The translations under genes and the position numbers were made by a program. From Paenibacillus thiaminolyticus (GTDB lineage: Bacteria; Bacillota; Bacilli; Paenibacillales; Paenibacillaceae), in assembly GCF_007066085.1 (NCBI RefSeq), contig NZ_CP041405.1, forward strand, positions 1,364,001 to 1,428,000: DNA of 64,000 nt. The letters are read 5' to 3'. Under the pieces are notes generated by a model. The model ran no database searches. It saw only the letters and a program-made list of their open reading frames with translations, and was not told the DNA's origin. This document shows, one piece after another, positions 1 to 11,394 of this stretch. How positions within the stretch are numbered: position 1 is the first letter of the stretch; the number at the start of each line of letters is the position of its first letter.

Positions 1-360
1 GTCGATCACGAGCACGATATTTTTGACCGTCTTTACGCCGCCCGCCTCGATCTGGTACGCCGCTTCAAGCGCCAGTCCCGCGATGAACAGCATGACGAGC
101 GTCGCGGGCACGAGCACCAGCCATGATGTGCCCGCATACCGCTGCCGCCACGATTGGCCATTCAGCCGGGGCGAGATCATCTCGGCCGTCAGGCAGGCCA
201 GGCCGATGAATAGGGCGATAACGCCGAAGTAGAGCCCGCTTACCACGACATCCGGCCATTGGCCAAGCAGGCGGCCCAGCAGCCACTCCCCGGCCGCCCA
301 GCCGGCGGCGCCTCCGATCAGGCTGAACAGCACCATGAGCCAGTTCACTTTTCGCTGCAT
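1..360 (-). CDS. Membrane protein entering a VWA domain, N-terminal part (cut by left edge)
   Basis: These are the first 120 codons of a gene that continues past the left edge. It begins at an ATG at 360, with GAGAGG about 12 bases upstream. Hydrophobic stretches at about residues 7-24, 38-58 and 80-100 predict three membrane spans. The last visible residues, NIVLVID, look like the first strand of a von Willebrand factor A domain, the final D being the expected first metal-site (MIDAS) aspartate. The gene is co-directional with the tubulin-like genes to its right, 151 bases after the stop of the second one, so it is probably part of the same operon. The VWA call rests on one strand only and would be settled by the sequence further left. 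Confidence 0.6.
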   Translation of the reverse strand, partial: MQRKVNWLMVLFSLIGGAAGWAAGEWLLGRLLGQWPDVVVSGLYFGVIALFIGLACLTAEMISPRLNGQSWRQRYAGTSWLVLVPATLVMLFIAGLALEAAYQIEAGGVKTVKNIVLVID

Positions 361-511: not shown

Positions 512-2950
512 TTAACGGACAGGCGGCAGCAGCTCAGGATCGAGGCCGTGGAATCGGTACCCGTTCTGCACATAGCTCTCGTAGTACATTTTCCCGTTCC
601 GGTAATACATGAGGTCCTCAACGCGGAAGCCGCCCATAATGTTCAGCTTCTCCACCCCGCTGCTTCGCTTCTCGTGCACGCAGCCGAGCTTGTAGATGCG
701 GGACGTCTCCTCCTCGTTCAGCGCGTACCGCATAAATTCGCTCGTCGCGTCGCCGAAGAAATATTTCTCCTCATAGCGGTGCTTATGCGTATAATCGAGC
801 AGGCGGATATGAATGCCGGCATGCTCCTCCAGCGTCCGGTACAGCTTCTTGAACAGTTCGTCTCGCGACAGCACCTCCTGGTTGCTGTAGTCGATCGTCA
901 CGTTCGCCCGCCGCAGCAGTTCTTCCTCGAACGTCTGCTTGAACGGAGCCGCGGTCAAAATATGAGCCCGGCACACCTCGCACAGCCGCGCGGCCAATGC
1001 TTCCGTTCCTTGCTCCAGCAGGCGGGAGACGCTGCCCATATACCGCTCTTCGCCGAAGGCGCCCGGCCCCCGCTTCGCCTCGATATCCCGCATGACGTCC
1101 GCCGTTACTCGCTCGTAATACTCCATAATATTTTGACCGATATAATCATCGGCCTGGCGGATGCTGGCAAACGCCGCTTCCCGGAGCGTCCGCTCCAGCG
1201 TCTCCAGCTGCTGCACATACTGCTTATATATCGTGTGCAGCCGTTCCAGCTCCGCTTCATATCTCCGGTACAGCCCCAGCTCCGTCTCCAGCCGCAGCAC
1301 CTCCAGCTTCTGACGGTACACGGTGTCGAAGAAGGTGCGGATGAAGCTGCGCACATTATGCTTATCCATCAGCGGCAGCCGCTGGAACGATTGCTCCTCC
1401 ACCGTCTCGCTATACTTCTGCTCCAGCTCGGCCCGCGCCGCCTCGAGTGCTCTTCCCGCATCGCGGATGCGGCCGTGCAGAAGCGGCCAGATGCTGCCCG
1501 CTTCCTCCGCTTCGTTCGTCCAGGCGTACACATGATAGAAGCCGATATCCGTCTGGGAGTCCAGCCGCTGCCGGACCATATATTGCAGCTCGTCATCCGG
1601 CAGCTGCCGGATCGCGCTGTCTGCGGCCCGTTCGTAATTATCCCGGAAAAAGGCAATGCAGCCGCTGCCGAACAGCGCTTCCTCGGCTTCGCGCAGCGTC
1701 ATGCGCTTCAATTGGCTGAAGCTGACGCCATGCGTCATCATGCCGTTCATATCGCGGAGCCGCTCATCGTCCGGCACTGCTTGATCGACCCGGGCCCCTA
1801 TCGCTTCCGGGTCCAGCCCGAACCAGGCCAGCTTCTCCGCCGGCGTCCGTTCGGGTCCGCCCTTCATCCGCGCCGTCAGCTCCCGGCAGAAATGGTACAG
1901 CACAGCGAGCGCTATCGAATGATTCGGGCGCTTCACCTTCGAGAATCCCGCCGAGACGAACCCGATCCGGCCGGATTCGGTCATCAGATTGTTGCGCAGG
2001 GAGGTATTGTTGTAGCTGTCCATTCCATGCGCCGCGGCCGAGTCAATCCGCTTCCGGTTTTTCAACAGGTTCATATGGCAAATGATCTCGTAATTGTCTT
2101 CCTCGTCGAAGGATGACATGCCGCGTTCATTTTTGTCCGTCAGCACGTAGACGAGATCGAATAACGGCGAAGCGGGATGCGTCACCTCGATCGCAATCCC
2201 GTCTTCCGTCACATGCAGCGGGGCCGAGAACGAATAGTCCGGACTCTGCATATAATCGAGCTCGCGCAGGAACGCGACTCCCGCCGAGCTGGCATAGCCG
2301 AAGGATTCCGCTTGTTCACGCTCGCTGACGAGCGCGTACAGGTCCGTCTGCACCGATTTGAACGATTGCTGAAAAATCGCTTCCGCCAGCATCGTAATTT
2401 CCGGCACCAGCACATTGAGCGGATCATCGGCCCGCGTAATGACCCCCAGATGAATCCGGTCGAAGGAGGCATACAGGCGGCCGTACTCCGCGATATCGCT
2501 GCTCACCTTCCGCAAGATGCGGTTGAGCTCAAGCAGGCCGCCCTCCTCCTCGTAGAACTGGCGGTGCACATCGCGGCGCAGCTTCTTGCGGCTGTCGCCG
2601 CCCCCGCTTCCGCCGATCGGAAGCACGAGCCGGGCGACTCTGCCGCCGGGGTCTGCGCCATGCCGCGCGGAAGCGGAGCCGCGGGCGGCCGGGCCAGCCG
2701 TGTCATCGCCGTAAGCTTCCACGCCTTGGTCACGGGACGCCGCGTGCACGTACATCACGCCGGCGCTGTTATCCCATTTCCGATCGTTAATCCGGATCAT
2801 CGGCTCGATAGCGTCCCCCGCCTTGTCGCCGATGAAGAGGAACACCGTCGGATAATGAATGCTGCTCTGGTTATCGTCCCGGCCGGTGAGGCGATCCTCG
2901 TCGTGCGCATATTCGGTTGCGAACCTTTCTACCATGGTGTGCGTCATCAT
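512..2950 (-). CDS. Second tubulin/FtsZ-like protein, nucleotide loop lost
   Basis: An 812-residue protein starting one base after the stop of the larger tubulin-like gene (TAA-G-ATG), so the two are translationally coupled. It is unannotated by eye at first, but several blocks align with that neighbour: IGDKAGD (40-46) with IGLGGTG, RELDYM (229-234) with KELDYW, SPLFDLVYVLTD (261-272) with SPLPPFNLCHLIS, and GFVSAGFSKVKRP (330-342) with NIIGASSAVLPIE. At the place of the neighbour's GGTGSG loop this protein reads ITRADDPLN (171-179), so the phosphate-binding glycines are gone. The C-terminal half is mostly charged helix and probably coiled coil. I infer a catalytically dead partner subunit, possibly forming a heterodimer or mixed filament. 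Homology is read by eye and the function is inferred. Confidence 0.65.
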   Translation of the reverse strand: MMTHTMVERFATEYAHDEDRLTGRDDNQSSIHYPTVFLFIGDKAGDAIEPMIRINDRKWDNSAGVMYVHAASRDQGVEAYGDDTAGPAARGSASARHGADPGGRVARLVLPIGGSGGGDSRKKLRRDVHRQFYEEEGGLLELNRILRKVSSDIAEYGRLYASFDRIHLGVITRADDPLNVLVPEITMLAEAIFQQSFKSVQTDLYALVSEREQAESFGYASSAGVAFLRELDYMQSPDYSFSAPLHVTEDGIAIEVTHPASPLFDLVYVLTDKNERGMSSFDEEDNYEIICHMNLLKNRKRIDSAAAHGMDSYNNTSLRNNLMTESGRIGFVSAGFSKVKRPNHSIALAVLYHFCRELTARMKGGPERTPAEKLAWFGLDPEAIGARVDQAVPDDERLRDMNGMMTHGVSFSQLKRMTLREAEEALFGSGCIAFFRDNYERAADSAIRQLPDDELQYMVRQRLDSQTDIGFYHVYAWTNEAEEAGSIWPLLHGRIRDAGRALEAARAELEQKYSETVEEQSFQRLPLMDKHNVRSFIRTFFDTVYRQKLEVLRLETELGLYRRYEAELERLHTIYKQYVQQLETLERTLREAAFASIRQADDYIGQNIMEYYERVTADVMRDIEAKRGPGAFGEERYMGSVSRLLEQGTEALAARLCEVCRAHILTAAPFKQTFEEELLRRANVTIDYSNQEVLSRDELFKKLYRTLEEHAGIHIRLLDYTHKHRYEEKYFFGDATSEFMRYALNEEETSRIYKLGCVHEKRSSGVEKLNIMGGFRVEDLMYYRNGKMYYESYVQNGYRFHGLDPELLPPVR

Positions 2951-2951
2951 C

Positions 2952-5900
2952 TTATTTCAACTTTCTCCGAATGGCGTTCAGCTTGGTCGTCAATTGCTTG
3001 TAGAACTGGTACGTGTCCTCGCCGTTCGCCAGCTCGATTTTCTCGTATTCCAGCCGCTCGCGCGCCTCCAGGAATGCCGCGTACAGCTCATCCAGCTTCG
3101 CCAGCAGCGGCGCGACGTCCTCTGTCGCCGTCATCTCGGCGGCGCGGCGGGCCGATTTGCGCAGCAGCGTGCCGCGACTCTTCTCATCCAGGCCGCGGAA
3201 ATGCTCGTATACTTCGTATTCGACATAATCCCGGCTCTTCATCAGATTGGCGAACGGCTCCCATGCTTCCTCTTCCTCGTCGCGGTCATACACATAGAGC
3301 GCGCCTTTTTTGCAGATCGTTCCGGTGTACAGCGCCTCGATGAATTGATCCTGCCACTTCTCCTCATCCTGATGCTGGCTAAGGATCTGCTCGAACTCGG
3401 CCATCTTCGCCTCGATCGCCTCATACTTGGCCAGTTCCTCACGAATGCGCGCAATCAGCTCCGGCGAGCGGATCAGATTGTCCTTCGCCAGATCCTCGTT
3501 CATGCTGCCGAAAATATCTTTGGTCTCGACCGGCTCCAGCCCCTCTTCCAGCAGCCGCTTCAGATCGAGGTAAGCGCGCTTCACTTCCCCGAGATTCGGC
3601 TTCGCGGCCTGAAGCTGCAGATCGTAGCCTTGCAGCATGTCCGCGAGGTTGAACGGCTTCGTGAAGACGACCGCATAGCGGTTGCTCGTGTTGTCGTCCA
3701 TGCCCTTCTCGATGACGGTCTTGAACCGCGAGCCCCGTTCGAATTCGGCGCGGACGCGGGCGTTGTATTTCTGCACCCGTTCATTCTGGTACGTATCTCC
3801 CCATGATTGCTCCGGTATCGGCGAAGGAAGATAAGTCCAATTCGCTTTATCGGTCTGCACGAGATGGCGGCCGATCCCCTCCTTGTCGAGAATCGTGCGC
3901 TCGTAGCTTTCCTCATATACCTTGAGCGGCGTATAGACGAAGAGCGGCACCCCGTTATGCGTATTCAGCCAGAAGATGCGGTTCTTCACTTCGCTCTCCT
4001 TGACCGTGAAGTTCGACTTGCCGACCGCATTGTTCTGATAATTGCGGATCCCTTTGAGAATGCTCGGCGCCTGGACGGGCACCGACACGAAGCCCCAGCG
4101 CGGGAAATGAAGATTGCCCGAGCTGTTGCTCAGATGGAAGACCGGAACCGCCTCGTCATCCAGCTTGCTCGCGATCTGGCGCTCGACGAACTTGTCGATC
4201 GACTCGTCGTTGCCGAACTTCATGACGAGGAACTCCTCCATCGATTGCGTAATCAGATCGCCGAACTTGTCCGACAGGAAGTCTGAGATCGAACTAACGA
4301 TATCGAGCTCCTGCTCCTTGATCCACTGGTTCGAGTGATTCAGCAGCTCCAGCGAGAAGTCGCGGATCAAGTCATCGACTTCCTTCTGATCCATAATGTT
4401 GCTGATGACTTTCGAGATGTCCGGCACGCTGACGATGTTCCAGTAATAGGTCCGGTTCCCTTTATGGTCGGCCTGCTCCTCGCCGTTGATCAGAATGTCG
4501 CCGTTCTTCTCGAAGATCGAGTTGAGCGCGTTCAATATTTCGGTAAATACGCTATAAATGCGGTTGTTCTCCTGGTTCAGCAGCTGGTACAGATCCTCGT
4601 AGAATTCGATCATCTGCTCCGTGCGCTCCACATCGGCATGCAGCCAATATTCATGGATTTTGGCTTCGATGTACATATTTTTCTTTTTGTCCTTGGAAAT
4701 AAAGGCGCTCTTCGCATCGCCGAGGCGCTCATTCGCCTGCTCCTGCGCCGCCTCGATGTCGCGCGGAATATGATGCAGATTCTCGCGCAGCGTCTCGATG
4801 TAGGAGAGCAGCATTTTCAACAGACAGAAGCCCTTCTCCGTGTAGATGAGACGGGACACATAGAACGGCCCCTGCTCCGGATGGAGGAACATCCGCCGGA
4901 TCTGATCGGTGAAGCTGCCGACGATCTCGCCGGGAAGCTGCTTCTTCGCCTTGATGTATTCCTCGCGCGCCCGCGCCAGGAACGTCTGCTCCAGCTCCGT
5001 ATCCATATTGACGACTTGCATTTTGATGACATTGTTATAGCTCAGGCGCTCGCTGTTCTCGAAGCCCGGCAGCGGCTCCGGCACGCGCGATTCGAATGTC
5101 TTCACCATCGTGTCGAGATCGACGCCCAGCTTGCGGGCGAACTTCTCGACCTCCTCCTGGCTCGGCGCCTTCTGGAACATCTTCTCCATCTTCTGGAACA
5201 GACGGTACCCGAGATAGGTCGTCATCTCTTCGATTGGCAGGACGGCCGACGACGCGCCGATGATGTTGTATTCGTAATTGGCCGGATACGCCCGGTTCAT
5301 CTGGGCGATATTCGTACGGATATTGCTGATATAGTCGTGAATCGCGAATTCCTCGCCGGACTGCTTCTCCTCGCTCGCCATGAAGTTGGTAATGTTCTCG
5401 GCCGTCACGTTCATGCAGTAGTCGTACGAGTTCTCCAGCAGCTTCCCTTCCGTGTTCGTCGCCGAGATCAGATGGCACAGATTGAACGGCGGCAGCGGAG
5501 AATTAACCGTCAGGATGTTGCCGTATTTCTGCCGGAAGCGCTCGCCGCGGCTGTCAACGTTCATCCAGTAATCAAGCTCCTTGAGCGCGGCGTAGCCGTT
5601 CTTCTTGATATATTCGCGCGTATGCTCGCTTAGGCTCTTGTTCGACAGGTTCACGTCCGGCGTGAACAGATAGCCGAGCGTATTGACGCGGTCGATGCCC
5701 GCCGAGCCGTAATCCCGCTCGATAATGCCCCGCACGATATAGGAAATATCCAGGAAGCAGCCGCTGCCGGTCCCGCCGGACAAGCCGGACAGGAGAAATA
5801 CCATCAGCTTCTTGTTCGTGCCGACGGACAGCGTCTTAATCTTCTTGTCAATCGCCTGCACGACCTGATTGATTTTGGTGAACAGCAGCAGGCGGCCCGC

Positions 5901-6341
5901 CTGGCGCACGCCTGCGGCGCCGTTCATCCCGTCGGTGATGCTGAGCTCGGGGGACAGCCACTCGGTAATGTACGGCTCCAGGATGCTGCGGTTCTGCAGC
6001 AGCCCGCCGATCTCGGCGTTCGACAGCAGCACGAATTCATTGAGCGGATCGAGTCCGATGCCGCGGTATTTTTTGTTGCGATCCTGTTCGTTCGTCTCAA
6101 ATGCCAAGAACTCCACATTGTCCGGCTTCTCGCGCTTCTTCTTCGAGATCGGATCTTCCGGCAGCTTGAATCTGCGGTTGATCTGATACTTCAAGCGCAG
6201 CAGCGCGTCGATGCCGGTCCCGCCCAAGCCGATAATCAAGATCGGATTGTCGATCGTGTCGACGCGGATCTTATCGCTGACGATTCCTCCGCCCAGCGAT
6301 ACGTCCAATTGCTGAATATGTTCTCTGACGATTGGTTTCAT
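2952..6341 (-). CDS. Large tubulin/FtsZ-like GTPase-fold protein
   Basis: A 1129-residue protein, about three times the length of FtsZ. The first 400 residues carry the signature of the Tubulin_2/FtsZ-like family: a Rossmann strand with IIGLGGTG (36-43), an acidic/Asn strand FLAFETN (78-84), GVRQAGR (144-150) and the tubulin T-loop SGGTGSG (188-194) after a hydrophobic strand. A canonical FtsZ T7 catalytic loop was not recognised. The remaining 700 residues are helical and mixed alpha/beta with no domain I can name. No signal peptide or membrane span is evident, so it should be cytosolic. It starts at the ATG at 6341 behind GGGAGGAAC. It sits between a secreted VWA protein and a degenerate paralogue. 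Families of this type were proposed from genome context to act in membrane remodelling with VWA partners; nucleotide binding is likely, polymer formation is inference. Confidence 0.8.
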   Translation of the reverse strand: MKPIVREHIQQLDVSLGGGIVSDKIRVDTIDNPILIIGLGGTGIDALLRLKYQINRRFKLPEDPISKKKREKPDNVEFLAFETNEQDRNKKYRGIGLDPLNEFVLLSNAEIGGLLQNRSILEPYITEWLSPELSITDGMNGAAGVRQAGRLLLFTKINQVVQAIDKKIKTLSVGTNKKLMVFLLSGLSGGTGSGCFLDISYIVRGIIERDYGSAGIDRVNTLGYLFTPDVNLSNKSLSEHTREYIKKNGYAALKELDYWMNVDSRGERFRQKYGNILTVNSPLPPFNLCHLISATNTEGKLLENSYDYCMNVTAENITNFMASEEKQSGEEFAIHDYISNIRTNIAQMNRAYPANYEYNIIGASSAVLPIEEMTTYLGYRLFQKMEKMFQKAPSQEEVEKFARKLGVDLDTMVKTFESRVPEPLPGFENSERLSYNNVIKMQVVNMDTELEQTFLARAREEYIKAKKQLPGEIVGSFTDQIRRMFLHPEQGPFYVSRLIYTEKGFCLLKMLLSYIETLRENLHHIPRDIEAAQEQANERLGDAKSAFISKDKKKNMYIEAKIHEYWLHADVERTEQMIEFYEDLYQLLNQENNRIYSVFTEILNALNSIFEKNGDILINGEEQADHKGNRTYYWNIVSVPDISKVISNIMDQKEVDDLIRDFSLELLNHSNQWIKEQELDIVSSISDFLSDKFGDLITQSMEEFLVMKFGNDESIDKFVERQIASKLDDEAVPVFHLSNSSGNLHFPRWGFVSVPVQAPSILKGIRNYQNNAVGKSNFTVKESEVKNRIFWLNTHNGVPLFVYTPLKVYEESYERTILDKEGIGRHLVQTDKANWTYLPSPIPEQSWGDTYQNERVQKYNARVRAEFERGSRFKTVIEKGMDDNTSNRYAVVFTKPFNLADMLQGYDLQLQAAKPNLGEVKRAYLDLKRLLEEGLEPVETKDIFGSMNEDLAKDNLIRSPELIARIREELAKYEAIEAKMAEFEQILSQHQDEEKWQDQFIEALYTGTICKKGALYVYDRDEEEEAWEPFANLMKSRDYVEYEVYEHFRGLDEKSRGTLLRKSARRAAEMTATEDVAPLLAKLDELYAAFLEARERLEYEKIELANGEDTYQFYKQLTTKLNAIRRKLK

Positions 6342-6398: not shown

Positions 6399-8180
6399 CT
6401 ACACAATATATTCAATCCAGACCGTTTTATCAACCTGTTGCAGCGGGATCGTAACCCGGTCGCCGCTCTTCAACTCCAGCCCTCTGCTCGCATCGACGGC
6501 GCGGCCTGATTTCTCAACCGTCCCGGCCGAGCCGTTCTTGAGCAGGATGCGGTCGCTCTTGCCCGGCATAAAGACCATCTTGTCGGTCTCCTTGAACTCG
6601 GGCGCCAGCTGCAGCAGCTGATGAAGCGTGAATTTACCCTTGAAGGCAGTCAGCTTCTTATATTGCGGATAGGTCTTCTCCCCCGTATTCTCATCGCGGA
6701 TCTCAATGACCATCTGGCCGACGAAGCCGCGGTTCGCCTTCTTCCATGCCGCAATAAGGAACCCGGCGGCCAGGGCGAGGACGATGAGGCCGACAGCCGC
6801 ATAGACGATCCACATCGGGAACGGCTTATCCGCTTCTCCATCGCCTGCACCCGCTTGAGCGGACGCACCGGCGCCCGCCGGCTTGGCGCTCACCTTGACC
6901 GGCTCCGTCTCCCGGTAGAAGCTCTTCTCCTCCGCTCTTACTTTAATCTCGTAATCATGCTTGTCCTTCACCTCGAATTCACCTTCGAAGCGGTCCCCCG
7001 CCTGATCGAGGGGCAGATCGGCCGTATCGCCGGTATCGAGGTCCTTGACATTCAGCACGGCGCTCATGTTCCGGTACAGCGCCTCGTTCTGCAGCTGCTG
7101 GCTATTGCTGGTCAAGTAGGCGCCAATCTTGATTTTATCTCCTTTTTTATAGGTTTTGGCCGGAATCGGGTCCATCGTCAGCTCCAGATCGTAGTTGAAG
7201 ACGAGATTAATATCGATCTTGTCCTTGTCCGCCCCCTTGACCTGCAGCTTCCAATCGCCCTGGACCGGTTGAATCAGCTTCAGGAGCGAATAGCTCTTCG
7301 AACGGGACAACTGAACGTCATCTGAAGGAATCGCGATCTCCTTGCCGGACGGGTCATACAGCTTCAATTCGACCGGCTTCGAGGACATGATGGAAATATT
7401 GGCCTCCATCACGTTCGCATTCGGCACGTTCACCGTCACGTCCTGATAGCTTCCGTTCCCGGTGATCGACTGGACCGGAACGATCTTCAGCTTTTGATGG
7501 CTGGCGAATATTTCGCTCAAAATTTGCGGCAGGTCGTCCGCGGACGACGTGACGAACGCTTTGCCGTTCGTCTGCTTCGACAATTCGGCCAACGCTTCCT
7601 TGTTCAGCTGCCCGTCGGCATTCAGCCCGATCGTGTAGATCGGGATGCCTTTTTGCTTCGCGTCTTCTACCGCCGCGCTCAGCTCCTGATCCGACTCCGC
7701 CTGCGTGCGGCCGCCGTTCTTGTTCAAGTAGTTATTGCCGTCAGCCAGCAGCACGATCATCGGCTCATGGGCCGGGTCGGCTCCCTGCTGGAGCACCTTG
7801 ACGGCTTCCTTCACCCCGACCGCGATGTCGGTATAGGGCCCGCGGTTCAATTGGTCGATGAACTGCTTCAGATCCTCCTTGTCCGCCTGGGATCGAATCT
7901 CCAGCAGCGCTTTCTCGCGTTCGATTTTATCGGTATAAGCGACGATGCCGACTTTATCGCCTGAGGACGACAGCATATCGATGAACATCTTCATCGCTTC
8001 ATTGCCGATCTTGTCTTTATCGCTCGTATCCATCGAATTGCTCACATCGATGACAAGCATGGCATCGATCTTCGAGGCCGCCTGGGCAGCCTGCGCCGCA
8101 GGCACCTTCCCGAGCCAGGGAAGCAAGCCGAATGCCAGAGTGAACAACATCATGTAAGCAGCAAATTTTCTCTGAAGCAT
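6399..8180 (-). CDS. Secreted VWA-domain protein with C-terminal membrane anchor
   Basis: 593 residues. A signal peptide (hydrophobic to about residue 22, cleavage near AQA-A around 30-35) is followed at once by a VWA domain with a full metal site: DVSNS (45-49), the threonine in GPYTD, and LLADG. A beta-rich stalk of Ig-like character follows, then one membrane span at about 453-475 and a roughly 115-residue cytosolic beta-rich tail. The topology places the metal-binding VWA outside and the tail inside, where it could meet the tubulin-like proteins encoded 57 bases downstream. It is the first gene of the leftward operon, with its promoter in the shared intergenic region at 8181-8564. The VWA assignment is firm; a role as a transmembrane adaptor is inferred. 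Confidence 0.85.
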   Translation of the reverse strand: MLQRKFAAYMMLFTLAFGLLPWLGKVPAAQAAQAASKIDAMLVIDVSNSMDTSDKDKIGNEAMKMFIDMLSSSGDKVGIVAYTDKIEREKALLEIRSQADKEDLKQFIDQLNRGPYTDIAVGVKEAVKVLQQGADPAHEPMIVLLADGNNYLNKNGGRTQAESDQELSAAVEDAKQKGIPIYTIGLNADGQLNKEALAELSKQTNGKAFVTSSADDLPQILSEIFASHQKLKIVPVQSITGNGSYQDVTVNVPNANVMEANISIMSSKPVELKLYDPSGKEIAIPSDDVQLSRSKSYSLLKLIQPVQGDWKLQVKGADKDKIDINLVFNYDLELTMDPIPAKTYKKGDKIKIGAYLTSNSQQLQNEALYRNMSAVLNVKDLDTGDTADLPLDQAGDRFEGEFEVKDKHDYEIKVRAEEKSFYRETEPVKVSAKPAGAGASAQAGAGDGEADKPFPMWIVYAAVGLIVLALAAGFLIAAWKKANRGFVGQMVIEIRDENTGEKTYPQYKKLTAFKGKFTLHQLLQLAPEFKETDKMVFMPGKSDRILLKNGSAGTVEKSGRAVDASRGLELKSGDRVTIPLQQVDKTVWIEYIV

Positions 8181-8338: not shown

Positions 8339-8369
8339 ATTTACTGATTCTACCACCGATCTGTCATTA

Positions 8370-8378
8370 TGATATAAT
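8370..8378 (+). promoter_or_regulatory. Extended -10 promoter of rightward operon
   Basis: TGATATAAT is a perfect sigma-A -10 hexamer with the TGn extension. The -35 region at 17-base spacing (CTACCA) is poor, which the extended -10 could offset. Transcription would begin near 8385 and leave a leader of about 180 bases before the first start codon. Confidence 0.45.
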
Positions 8379-8564
8379 CAGTGACTGTAAAGTTCAACCT
8401 CATTCGACACAATGCAATAGGAACAAGGTCATTCGAATGAAGGATGTCCTTGTCGAAATTTGTCTAATCAGTATACGATTCAAGGACACGCTGCCTTAAT
8501 AGATTACTATGGGCTTGCGGAGCATCTCCCATTACTAGATTGCAGTTAAAGGAAGGGACTCTCT

Positions 8565-8717
8565 ATGTTAGCATACGGTTGTATCGCAGTTTTGTTTCTT
8601 TTTGTCGCCAGCCAAGCCGTCCTCTATTGGGTTCGGCAGAAAGCGACGCCTTCGCCGGCGGATATTGATGCCCGGCTTGTCTCTATCGTCAATGGCGAGA
8701 GCGGGAGAACGCCATGA
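8565..8717 (+). CDS. 50-residue membrane peptide
   Basis: A short gene with a good ribosome site (GGAAGGGA, 7 bases before the ATG). The product starts MLAYGCIAVLFLFVASQAV, a single hydrophobic span, followed by a short charged tail. Its stop overlaps the next start as ATGA (8714-8717), which is strong evidence that it is translated and coupled to the zinc-ribbon gene. It is too short for homology by eye. In context it is probably the small membrane component of the rightward arm of the tubulin/VWA locus. Confidence 0.65.
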   Translation: MLAYGCIAVLFLFVASQAVLYWVRQKATPSPADIDARLVSIVNGESGRTP

Positions 8718-9655
8718 AAAAAATACCTGCCTACTTCAGACCTTACCGCAAGCCGAAGCAGCTCTATCATCTCATACATCGATGCGCCTCGTGTCAGGCG
8801 TTCACCGCGCTGGAGGAAGAAATCTGTCCGGTCTGCGGTAAAGCGTCGCTGCGCCCGATCGAACGGCACGCGGCCTCCCGGGTAAGACGATCGCTGCAGA
8901 CGAAGCGGCTCTTCGCCCTGCTGCTCGGGCTCATCGGCATCCTGCTGAGCGATACGTTCGGGCAAATGGTGCTCTGCGCCGCGGCGTCCATCCTCTTGAT
9001 CGGCCTGCTCTGGTTCGTCCAGCGGAAGGCAATGTCCGCCGAAGCCAGCCGCGAGCTGGATCAATTGCTGCAGCGCGAGCAGGAACGGCTGGCCCAGGAC
9101 ATATACCGCGACTGGGAGCATGCCTTCTCCCATTGGGATGACGACAAGCAGCTCACCTATGAGCTGCTGCGCGAGCTGCGGCCGTTAATCCGCAACGATA
9201 CGATTCGGCTGCAGCAGCTGGCGCTGCTTCATTACTTCGCGCTGCGCAAAGATATGGAGCTGGAGCTGGAGCCGCTCTTGCTGCAGCAATATGATCCGCT
9301 GTTGGCCGATTACATCGGCGAGATCGCCAAAATCAAGCGGGATCTGATTAAGGACCGCACGTTCCAGTTCGTCATCCATTACGAACCGGAAATACTCGGG
9401 CTGGACAACGGCCAGGATATTCTCGCGGGCGTGGCGGGCGCGGCCGTGCGCATGAAGCGCTACGTGCTCGCCTATCCCGGATTGGTCCGGCGCTACGCCC
9501 ATCGCCTGCCGAAGGAGCGCTTGCTCCGGCTGCACCGGATGATCCGGCAGCACCCGCATGAGAATTGGGACCGCGTCGCCGACGAGGTGAACCGGATTGT
9601 GCGCGAGAAATACGAATGGGATCCTGACTTTCAGGACTCGGCTGAGAGAGGCTGA
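8714..9655 (+). CDS. Zinc-ribbon membrane protein
   Basis: 313 residues. Near the N terminus are two CxxC pairs (CASC at about 24-27 and CPVC at about 38-41) that should bind one zinc. Two adjacent hydrophobic spans follow at about 65-80 and 85-102, then a long charged helical cytosolic region rich in Leu, Glu and Arg. No signal peptide precedes the ribbon, so both ends should face the cytoplasm. It is coupled to its neighbours on both sides, by an ATGA overlap upstream and a TGATG overlap downstream. The family is not one I recognise. The context suggests work with the membrane and cytosolic parts of the tubulin/VWA system. Confidence 0.7.
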   Translation: MKKIPAYFRPYRKPKQLYHLIHRCASCQAFTALEEEICPVCGKASLRPIERHAASRVRRSLQTKRLFALLLGLIGILLSDTFGQMVLCAAASILLIGLLWFVQRKAMSAEASRELDQLLQREQERLAQDIYRDWEHAFSHWDDDKQLTYELLRELRPLIRNDTIRLQQLALLHYFALRKDMELELEPLLLQQYDPLLADYIGEIAKIKRDLIKDRTFQFVIHYEPEILGLDNGQDILAGVAGAAVRMKRYVLAYPGLVRRYAHRLPKERLLRLHRMIRQHPHENWDRVADEVNRIVREKYEWDPDFQDSAERG

Positions 9656-11394
9656 TGTATATGACGATCCGAGACATCCTGAACCCGCGGAATCTGATGA
9701 TCTTGTTATGCGCCGCCGCGGTGGTAATGATTGGATTCAAGGGGATGCATATCAAAGAGAAGATCGACGCCGTCAAGGAGGCGGACCGGCTGTATGCCGC
9801 TCATGAGCTTGTGGAAGCGGAAGAAGCGTACCGTCATGCCCGGAATAATCGCTCGATACGTTATGAGGAAGACAAGCTTGCCGAGAGACTGCGGGAGCTG
9901 GCGCCGATTACCGAGATGAAGCGCCAACTGAACGAGGTCATGTCAGAGGCGGACGAAGCGGCGGCATCGCTCCGCTTCGATGCGTTTTTGAAGATACATA
10001 GCCGATATCAGCAATTGCGTTCGACCTATTTGAAGTCTGGCGGCTCTTATGCCGTCGAGTTCAAGCAGATGCTGGCCACCGCGCGAGCTGCAGACCGGAT
10101 GCAGGAGCATTTCAGCCGGTTCAAGGCTCATTTCGAGGCCCAGTTGAAAGACGGCAAGCAGGAGAGCGGTGGCGATGAACCGTTCAAGGCGAATCTGCTG
10201 GCCATTCCGGCCTCACTCTTCGGCGGGGCCGACGACAAGGCGAAGCAACTAACTCGCCTGTTCCGGTCCTATGACGAAGCCCAACTGGCGCGCCTGGCTA
10301 GCCAAGGAAAGTTCCAGCTTATGCTGGACGAGGTCCTGGCCATGCGCCAAGCGTACCGGAAGCTTGACATCGAGGCCGAATGGCTGAAGAGCAAGTCGGA
10401 GGAGCTTGCCGAGGCGATACTGCGGAAGGATGTCGAGCAGAACAATGCGAAGGCGTTCGCCCTTCACGCTTCCGCCTATGCGGCCTATGTGGATGCTTCC
10501 GGCATCCCGTCGCGGCTAAGCGGCTATCTGGAACGCGAGATGGAGAACTGGGTGCGGAAGGCGGACCGCCATGTGGCGGCCGGGGAATACGAAGCGGCGA
10601 TCAGCCTCTATGAGGCGCTGGCCGGCTTTCGCGACATGTCCGCGAACATCGAAGCCGTCCGCATCACCTGGGCCGCATCCGATCCGTCCCTTCTGCTGCC
10701 GGAGGGGGACTATCCGCTCGTCAGCGGCGGCCGGGACCGGTTCGGCGCCAAAGTGTACGCCATGGCGATCGATTCGGAGCGGCGCATATACTACGCGGCT
10801 TGGGACGGCCAAGGGCGGCCGACGGTGCTGCGCAGCCAGCCGCTTCCGACCGGAAACGCCGTGCGGAGCCTGACCGTCGAGGAACGGTTGAGCAGCAGCG
10901 ATCAGCCTGTCCTGCTCGTCGAAGCCGATTCACATTCGCGCGCAGCCTTGTACATCGCCTATACCGCCGCGAATAACCAGCTCAACCCGTTGTTCGCGTT
11001 CGAGGCGGACGGCTACGAGGTCGGAGGCGGCGCGACCTTGCTCGTACGTAACCCGACCGTAGCGGGAGCCGAGGGCAGAGCGGCCACCTACGAGCGTCAA
11101 GGCGACGTCTACCAATTTGTGGGTGTTATTCCAGGTTCGGATTATATCGATATCCGCGTGGAGCAGCTGCCGGAGTATCCGCGCGAGAAGGTCCGCTTCA
11201 CCTGCGAGATCACCGCTGTCAGCGAAATAGGAGCTTACGCCCGTATGGGAGACCGCTATATTCTGCTGAAGGGCGATTTCTCCTTCGAGGAAGGCCCGGT
11301 TACGGTCATTGGCGCCTATTATTACTATACGAACTTAGATATCGGCAGCGAGGACGAGACCGCTCCGGTCTTCATGGTCGAAGCTGTCGAATAG
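9655..11394 (+). CDS. Membrane-anchored helical-repeat protein with beta-rich C-terminal domain
   Basis: 579 residues. One membrane span lies near the N terminus (about residues 13-26), then a helical stretch to about 330 with alternating Ala/Glu/Leu patterns like tetratricopeptide repeats (for example AHELVEAEEAYRHARN and AAGEYEAAISLYEALAGF), and a beta-rich C-terminal half from about 345. The start at 9655 overlaps the preceding stop (TGATG); a second ATG at 9661 is an alternative. It ends the rightward operon before the hairpin at 11451. A scaffold role is suggested by the helical repeats, but no known family is recognised. Confidence 0.7.
   Translation: MYMTIRDILNPRNLMILLCAAAVVMIGFKGMHIKEKIDAVKEADRLYAAHELVEAEEAYRHARNNRSIRYEEDKLAERLRELAPITEMKRQLNEVMSEADEAAASLRFDAFLKIHSRYQQLRSTYLKSGGSYAVEFKQMLATARAADRMQEHFSRFKAHFEAQLKDGKQESGGDEPFKANLLAIPASLFGGADDKAKQLTRLFRSYDEAQLARLASQGKFQLMLDEVLAMRQAYRKLDIEAEWLKSKSEELAEAILRKDVEQNNAKAFALHASAYAAYVDASGIPSRLSGYLEREMENWVRKADRHVAAGEYEAAISLYEALAGFRDMSANIEAVRITWAASDPSLLLPEGDYPLVSGGRDRFGAKVYAMAIDSERRIYYAAWDGQGRPTVLRSQPLPTGNAVRSLTVEERLSSSDQPVLLVEADSHSRAALYIAYTAANNQLNPLFAFEADGYEVGGGATLLVRNPTVAGAEGRAATYERQGDVYQFVGVIPGSDYIDIRVEQLPEYPREKVRFTCEITAVSEIGAYARMGDRYILLKGDFSFEEGPVTVIGAYYYYTNLDIGSEDETAPVFMVEAVE

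Follow-up and report, generated by a model that had tools for sequence, protein, structure and literature searches.

Described systems closest to the locus

The FtsZl1 proteins of the tubulin superfamily were defined by a coiled coil, a helical C-terminus, and vWA partners, and a role in membrane remodeling was suggested for them (Makarova and Koonin, 2010; PMC2875224); a reviewer of that paper proposed transport or signaling instead (PMC2875224). A protein of this kind is encoded in a 64,000-nucleotide stretch of the Paenibacillus thiaminolyticus genome (NZ_CP041405.1, positions 1,364,001 to 1,428,000; hereafter the window, whose coordinates are used throughout). The protein, termed TubA (1129 residues; 2952-6341, minus strand), belongs to an operon that runs on past the left window edge in the minus-strand order VWA1, TubA, TubB, VWA2, a 212-residue protein, DO-GTPase, and GAP1. 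The TubA-TubB locus is proposed as the tubulin core of a vertically inherited, membrane-spanning cytoskeletal machine for the envelope driven by guanosine triphosphate (GTP), a reading for and against which the case appears evenly balanced.

The preliminary description of this DNA had linked TubA to the FtsZl1 families and their VWA partners, and the comparison agreed. TubA shared with FtsZl1 the PF13809 match, the GTP loop, the N-terminal tubulin-like domain, the coiled coil, the helical C-terminus, and the vWA partners, and the published FtsZl1 alignment includes Brevibacillus brevis (PMC2875224). In the 2010 FtsZl1 analysis T6-H7 and the C-terminal domain were not placed, whereas in the TubA model the C-terminal domain appears to follow a helical arm, and the OmpA and protein-kinase partners given for FtsZl1 were not found among the scanned neighbors of the window locus (PMC2875224).

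Firmicute GAP1-N2/DO-GTPase neighborhoods were described with two tubulin-domain genes with C-terminal coiled coils and two vWA genes, one of them coding for a multi-transmembrane protein with an extracellular vWA, together with a GAP1 carrying a polar C-terminal extension; a role in biological conflict was predicted, not membrane remodeling (Kaur et al., 2020; PMC7159879). The window locus has the same theme, including the DO-GTPase, a GAP1-N2/GAP1-M protein with a transmembrane segment and polar tail, two tubulins, two vWA proteins, and a firmicute host (PMC7159879), and is a member of this already described kind of gene cluster. The earlier suggestion of a distinct, uncharacterized version was therefore not upheld, as the gene set is that of Kaur et al. 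(2020; PMC7159879) and the DO-GTPase and GAP1 genes lie left of the window. The passages on tubulin-containing systems in that paper are silent on a tubulin lacking the GTP loop and on a divergent operon of small transmembrane, zinc-ribbon, and transmembrane proteins, and the YtkA and FNIII domains of its systems did not emerge in Pfam at the window locus (PMC7159879). New here are the split-fold model of TubA, a TubB without the GTP loop in 80 of 80 loci (Paenibacillus loci, the best 80 among 289; counts out of 80 below refer to them), a 50-residue membrane protein at the head of the divergent operon, the co-occurrence of Tubulin_2 with GAP1-N2, and FtsZ-like inheritance. The Tubulin_2 proteins were put aside as divergent in a 2023 survey of FtsZ and tubulin.

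TubA has a conserved nucleotide site

The plus-strand reading of 2952-6341 was interrupted by stops and the minus strand encoded 1129 residues with the sole stop at the end. The Pfam Tubulin_2 profile (PF13809) aligned almost end to end (positions 1-354 of 356) with TubA residues 35-385 at a score far above chance level (E 1.4e-75; 255 bits, cut-off 27), and TubA was the one strong Tubulin_2 protein in the 6.61-Mb genome, with the adjoining TubB as the second, sub-cut-off match. This match and a predicted tubulin/CetZ fold upheld the membership of the tubulin/FtsZ superfamily put forward earlier. Translation and alignment placed the T4 nucleotide loop SGGTGSG at residues 188-194 (codons 5760-5780, minus strand) and the IIGLGGTG strand at residues 36-43, including the T1 loop GLGGTG at 38-43 (codons 6213-6230, minus strand), confirming both motifs of the preliminary description. 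In an alignment of 100 rows (the window TubA and 99 of 240 listed relatives), GGTGxG was found in every row, with S (70 rows) or G (30 rows) at position x; G189, G190, T191, G192, and G194 as well as G40, G41, T42, and G43 were each kept in 100/100. The GGTGSG loop accordingly sits at the nucleotide site, as had been anticipated, and its sequence suggests that TubA binds GTP.

Compared with CetZ, FtsZ, tubulin, and TubZ, TubA is three times as long and matched neither the FtsZ_C nor the TubZ-like_C Pfam domain. A separate FtsZ_C gene was present elsewhere in the window genome and likewise in 29 of 29 genomes searched. A TubA profile search of the PDB sequences found no solved relative, with FtsZ matches at the loop region only (E 0.88-0.94) and a designed helical protein as the best row (E 0.005). 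Close relatives of TubA, with 98-99% identity, are named Paenibacillus dendritiformis. A Yersinia pestis entry, a contig of 25.6 kb, codes for a protein with 90% identity to TubA; the record is most likely mislabeled or contaminated and the DNA that of Paenibacillus.

A predicted tubulin fold interrupted by a helical arm

The TubA model resembled CetZ and tubulin, with structural matches spanning model residues 31-820 to 31-848. Within this span, residues about 386-745 (4107-5186, minus strand; limits estimated from the model DSSP) were nearly all helix, forming a predicted arm of about 360 residues inside the tubulin C-terminal domain. Majority-residue conservation was 45% in the arm versus 61-67% on either side. 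The CetZ/tubulin matches stop at residues 818-848, and the segment of residues about 746-850 (3792-4106, minus strand), with a strand-helix-strand-strand order and 61.5% conservation, is proposed to complete the C-terminal domain. The model thus suggests a split tubulin fold, in which roughly 100 residues past the arm appear to complete the domain that the arm interrupts. By DSSP, the model has a coiled coil and a mostly helical C-terminal part. The approximately 700 extra residues of unknown fold in the preliminary description are therefore not all extra, since about 100 of them, beyond the long helical arm, appear to belong to the tubulin fold.

TubB is a probable dead partner of TubA

The second tubulin-like protein noted earlier was confirmed as TubB (812 residues; 512-2950, minus strand), a degenerate tubulin-like partner without a GTP loop. 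Tubulin_2 matched TubB at E 4.7e-6 with 26.5 bits, 0.5 bit under the cut-off of 27, and 18 of 27 TubB rows matched weakly at E 0.1 or better. A profile of these 27 rows aligned with TubA by hhalign (Prob 94.1, E 1.3e-7), pairing TubB residues about 219-593 with TubA residues about 244-614. Kinship of the two proteins is drawn from the hhalign result and the weak Pfam matches; direct TubA-TubB BLASTP was not significant (E 0.048). A conserved GTP loop (GG[TS]G[STGA]G) was present in TubB of none of the 80 loci, the GGSGGG at residue 113 of the window TubB lying within a non-conserved stretch, and the TubB start fell between -1 and +90 bases from the TubA end. These sequences make TubB a likely dead partner of TubA. 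Nothing was found in a TubB profile search of the PDB sequences, and single-sequence AlphaFold gave TubB a predicted local distance difference test score (pLDDT) of 34.

Outside Paenibacillus, a TubB-like gene (766 residues) adjoins the Desulfosporosinus TubA, with a weak likeness to TubB (Prob 14.5, E 0.0019). A clostridial locus (L115:5632-12749) encodes two tandem Tubulin_2 proteins, both with the GTP loop, together with a DO-GTPase and a VWA protein; therefore, a dead partner is not universal, and the tandem pair may represent the state before one partner lost the loop. Among 120 listed TubB relatives, 3 carry a precomputed PF13809 match. Many public Paenibacillus entries name the TubB family "transcription initiation factor TFIID," which looks like a propagated misannotation.

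Distribution, inheritance, and selection

In the genus, strong Tubulin_2 and GAP1-N2 matches were each present in 18 of 19 genomes, and the same genome (G002) lacked both. Some genomes had weak Tubulin_2 matches of about 450 residues; the one checked, in G002, might be taken for a TubA relic but is an unrelated TubZ-like protein (PF22453, E 4e-48; 449 residues; L122:6369-7718). Across the class, 43 of 299 genomes had strong Tubulin_2 (E below 1e-60), and exactly these 43 had GAP1-N2, always with both matches on a single contig; these genomes belong to three families and shared ancestry explains part of the co-occurrence. In a phylum sample, 16 of 398 genomes had any Tubulin_2 match at E 0.001.

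Over 29 genomes, TubA distances were closely correlated with those of FtsZ (Mantel r 0.947, a value reached by 0 of 2000 permutations), with mean identities of 82.9 and 83.2% and minima of 72.7 and 73.6%, respectively. Median identities across the 80 loci were 85% for the DO-GTPase, 83% for TubA, 65% for VWA1, 56% for the 212-residue protein, and 55% for VWA2. The TubA minimum in this set (80%) reflects how the loci were selected, and comparisons are drawn only between genes of the same loci. Ratios of nonsynonymous to synonymous substitution rates (dN/dS) in four pairwise comparisons were 0.04-0.10 for TubA, 0.05-0.08 for the DO-GTPase, 0.10-0.11 for VWA1, 0.14-0.19 for VWA2, 0.09-0.19 for the zinc-ribbon protein of the divergent operon, 0.17-0.24 for TubB, 0.18-0.26 for GAP1, and 0.14-0.30 for the 212-residue protein; TM579, the optional third protein of the divergent operon, had 0.31 (0.36 on a 51-codon piece). 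The locus is vertically inherited and under purifying selection. TubA had no match in phage records and no relative on viral contigs (a search that reached close relatives only), and 1 of 72,556 plasmid records matched, at 28% identity over 27%.

Proposed function and alternative explanations

The gene set, domains, loop conservation, predicted tubulin fold, and co-occurrence were the observations from which a mechanism was drawn up, in which the machine, encoded on the chromosome, would represent the tubulin-based form of the GAP1-N2/DO-GTPase systems in firmicutes. GTP-bound TubA would most likely assemble head to tail beneath the cytoplasmic membrane, with TubB in presumed contact with it and most likely acting as a catalytically inactive partner or a cap. 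A switch would be formed by the DO-GTPase and the membrane-anchored GAP1, and VWA1, VWA2, and the small transmembrane and zinc-ribbon proteins would relay its state through the membrane to the outside, where the metal-dependent vWA domains are predicted to lie. The likely job would be the constitutive organization or remodeling of the cell envelope or of a surface structure.

Several observations weigh against this reading, beginning with TubA itself. The T7 loop is the source of the catalytic acid in FtsZ and tubulin polymers. The TubA T7 segment, as assigned by inference from the alignment, had no invariant acid (D336 in 67/100 rows; E324 in 91/100), its conserved residues being S339 (96/100) and N340 (100/100), and model confidence was lowest there (pLDDT about 61-69). 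Polymer-coupled GTP hydrolysis by TubA is consequently uncertain. The split fold was without sequence-profile support, since FtsZ aligned only to TubA residues 34-260 (E 8.1e-9) and the excised C-terminal segments (E 0.63) scored no better than control stretches (E 0.17-0.50). The lack of an invariant acid in the T7 segment would suit a GTP-dependent regulatory scaffold without filaments, in which a fixed TubA-TubB complex has polymerization blocked by the split fold and the arm; the size of the insert within the C-terminal domain and the missing GTP loop of the partner would fit it too. Such a scaffold is nevertheless judged very improbable, given the full tubulin/CetZ fold predicted, the retention of E324 in most rows, and the filaments formed by characterized superfamily members (PMC2875224).

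A second group of observations concerns variability. Only 75 of 148 genomes in the family had a Tubulin_2 match over the cut-off, one of which (G094) was of a divergent type with 27% identity over part of the domain; flanking genes vary by species, with tnaA and GH3 nearby in 2 of 80 loci; and median identities were 54% for TubB, 46% for the zinc-ribbon protein, 41% for GAP1, and 36% for TM579 (in 36 of 80 loci). Patchiness and fast evolution of these parts are compatible with the biological-conflict role predicted for this gene set (Kaur et al., 2020; PMC7159879), an immunity-like system in which variable parts sense an invader, the GTPase switch fires, and tubulin assemblies are the effector; an immune system whose core is conserved while its sensors vary would be consistent with the data. 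The fast divergence of GAP1, TubB, and the membrane parts leaves the conflict view some weight, but it is regarded as unlikely. TubA and the DO-GTPase were constrained like a housekeeping gene, TubA tracked FtsZ, dN/dS did not exceed 0.36 in any gene tested, and the system was absent from phage records with one distant plasmid match. Window genes (the set excluded those left of the window) had no meaningful PADLOC match, the best score (E 2.9e-6) being that of a response regulator outside the locus. The envelope machine is favored over a conflict system because the nucleoside triphosphatase core resembles FtsZ in its evolution and is not carried by mobile elements, and such strict conservation looks more like routine envelope machinery than a fast-changing defense system.

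The remaining considerations come from cyanobacteria. Synechocystis Sll0445 shares the Tubulin_2 domain with TubA, and a mutant of its gene was impaired in phototaxis while the protein co-fractionated with pilus proteins (PMC9880817); Sll0445 and Sll0446 were also deregulated in a comFB mutant with pilus defects (PMC12313861). By analogy, the locus could encode a surface-transport, adhesion, or motility apparatus, in which a tubulin polymer would position or drive a trans-membrane assembly and the extracellular vWA would bind a ligand. The vWA domains predicted to lie outside the cell, whose DxSxS is intact, and their transmembrane anchors are in keeping with this, as is the transport or signaling role raised by the 2010 reviewer (PMC2875224). 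However, Sll0445 is of another subfamily, with FtsA-like Sll0446 and DivIC-like Sll0447 as partners (PMC9880817). Its phototaxis and pilus data, the one phenotype of a Tubulin_2 gene encountered in the literature consulted, also count in favor of the envelope machine, against which stand the difference in subfamily and a change of photosystem fluorescence in its mutants (PMC9880817). The scanned locus proteins included no recognizable pilin, motor ATPase, or secretion component. A surface apparatus is considered less probable still than a conflict system. No experiment on the TubA subfamily was found in the open-licence PubMed Central literature, which is a further point against the envelope machine.

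A more far-reaching version of the envelope-machine proposal is put forward only tentatively and with some doubt: relatives in Paenibacillus and Brevibacillus would have a housekeeping-grade second cytoskeleton, with an obligate pair of GTP-binding and dead tubulins, a split activation domain, and a DO-GTPase/GAP1 switch coupling it to extracellular vWA domains, and the conflict-system label would be wrong. If true, such a trans-envelope tubulin machine would stand apart from those of division and plasmid partition. With TubA conserved to the level of FtsZ, a probable dead partner, and a model of a split fold, the two competing predictions of remodeling (2010) and conflict (2020) become directly testable.

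Other genes of the minus-strand operon

The VWA and membrane gene neighbors of the preliminary description were confirmed. VWA1 (593 residues; 6399-8180, minus strand) has a signal or anchor, a vWA domain (Pfam VWA, E 1.8e-16) with DxSxS at 45, and a C-terminal transmembrane segment at 458-476 by motif and hydropathy scan; the Pfam scan gave besides VWA only MG2/Hemicentin-like matches under the cut-off, and YtkA and FNIII did not appear. The 5' part of VWA2 occupies 1-360 (minus strand) and the gene continues left of the window (L003:17080-18360), coding for 426 residues with five hydrophobic segments and DxSxS at 120 (Pfam VWA, E 4.8e-20). The 212-residue protein that follows had no Pfam match. 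The DO-GTPase (420 residues) carries zinc-binding CPFC and CPHC, the P-loop GASQVGKS, and TKSD (DO-GTPase2, 28.4 bits, cut-off 27), and the adjacent GAP1 (1031 residues) matched GAP1-N2 (E 1.2e-46; 158.6 bits, cut-off 24) and GAP1-M (E 1.5e-29), with one transmembrane segment (760-778) and a tail that is polar and of low complexity. Both genes are on the minus strand. Beyond GAP1 lie UbiA, HAD, and other, seemingly unrelated genes.

Divergent operon and candidate promoters

The divergent membrane operon reported earlier was found at 8565-11394 on the plus strand. It opens with a single-transmembrane protein of 50 residues (8565-8717), whose open reading frame shares an ATGA overlap with the beginning of the zinc-ribbon gene. 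Relatives that scored above 100 shuffles were present in 55 of 58 non-redundant loci. The zinc-ribbon membrane protein (313 residues; 8714-9655) was assigned from hydropathy and zinc-ribbon Pfam matches that were all under the cut-off. TM579 (579 residues; 9655-11394) is predicted to be a helical/beta protein anchored N-terminally by one transmembrane segment, and an open reading frame of at least 300 residues stood at its place in 38 of 80 loci. In the Paenibacillus popilliae locus (L009), only a short TM579 remnant, sharing this N-terminal region, was found.

Wherever VWA1 and the zinc-ribbon gene were both identified (79 loci), they were head to head, with a spacing of 262-675 bases. A consensus promoter scan of this region in the window DNA alone was not above shuffles (2 sites versus 1.4 expected), and the candidate promoters are supported because they are conserved across loci. 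A sigmaA-like promoter, TTGAAC-17-TATCAT (8369-8397, minus strand), faces VWA1-TubA-TubB, and an overlapping extended -10 element, TGATATAAT (8370-8378, plus strand), faces the divergent operon. Among 58 non-redundant intergenic regions, TTGANN-16..18-TATCAT faced VWA1 in 33 and the extended -10 element faced the divergent operon in 36, which suggests vegetative sigmaA expression of the locus.

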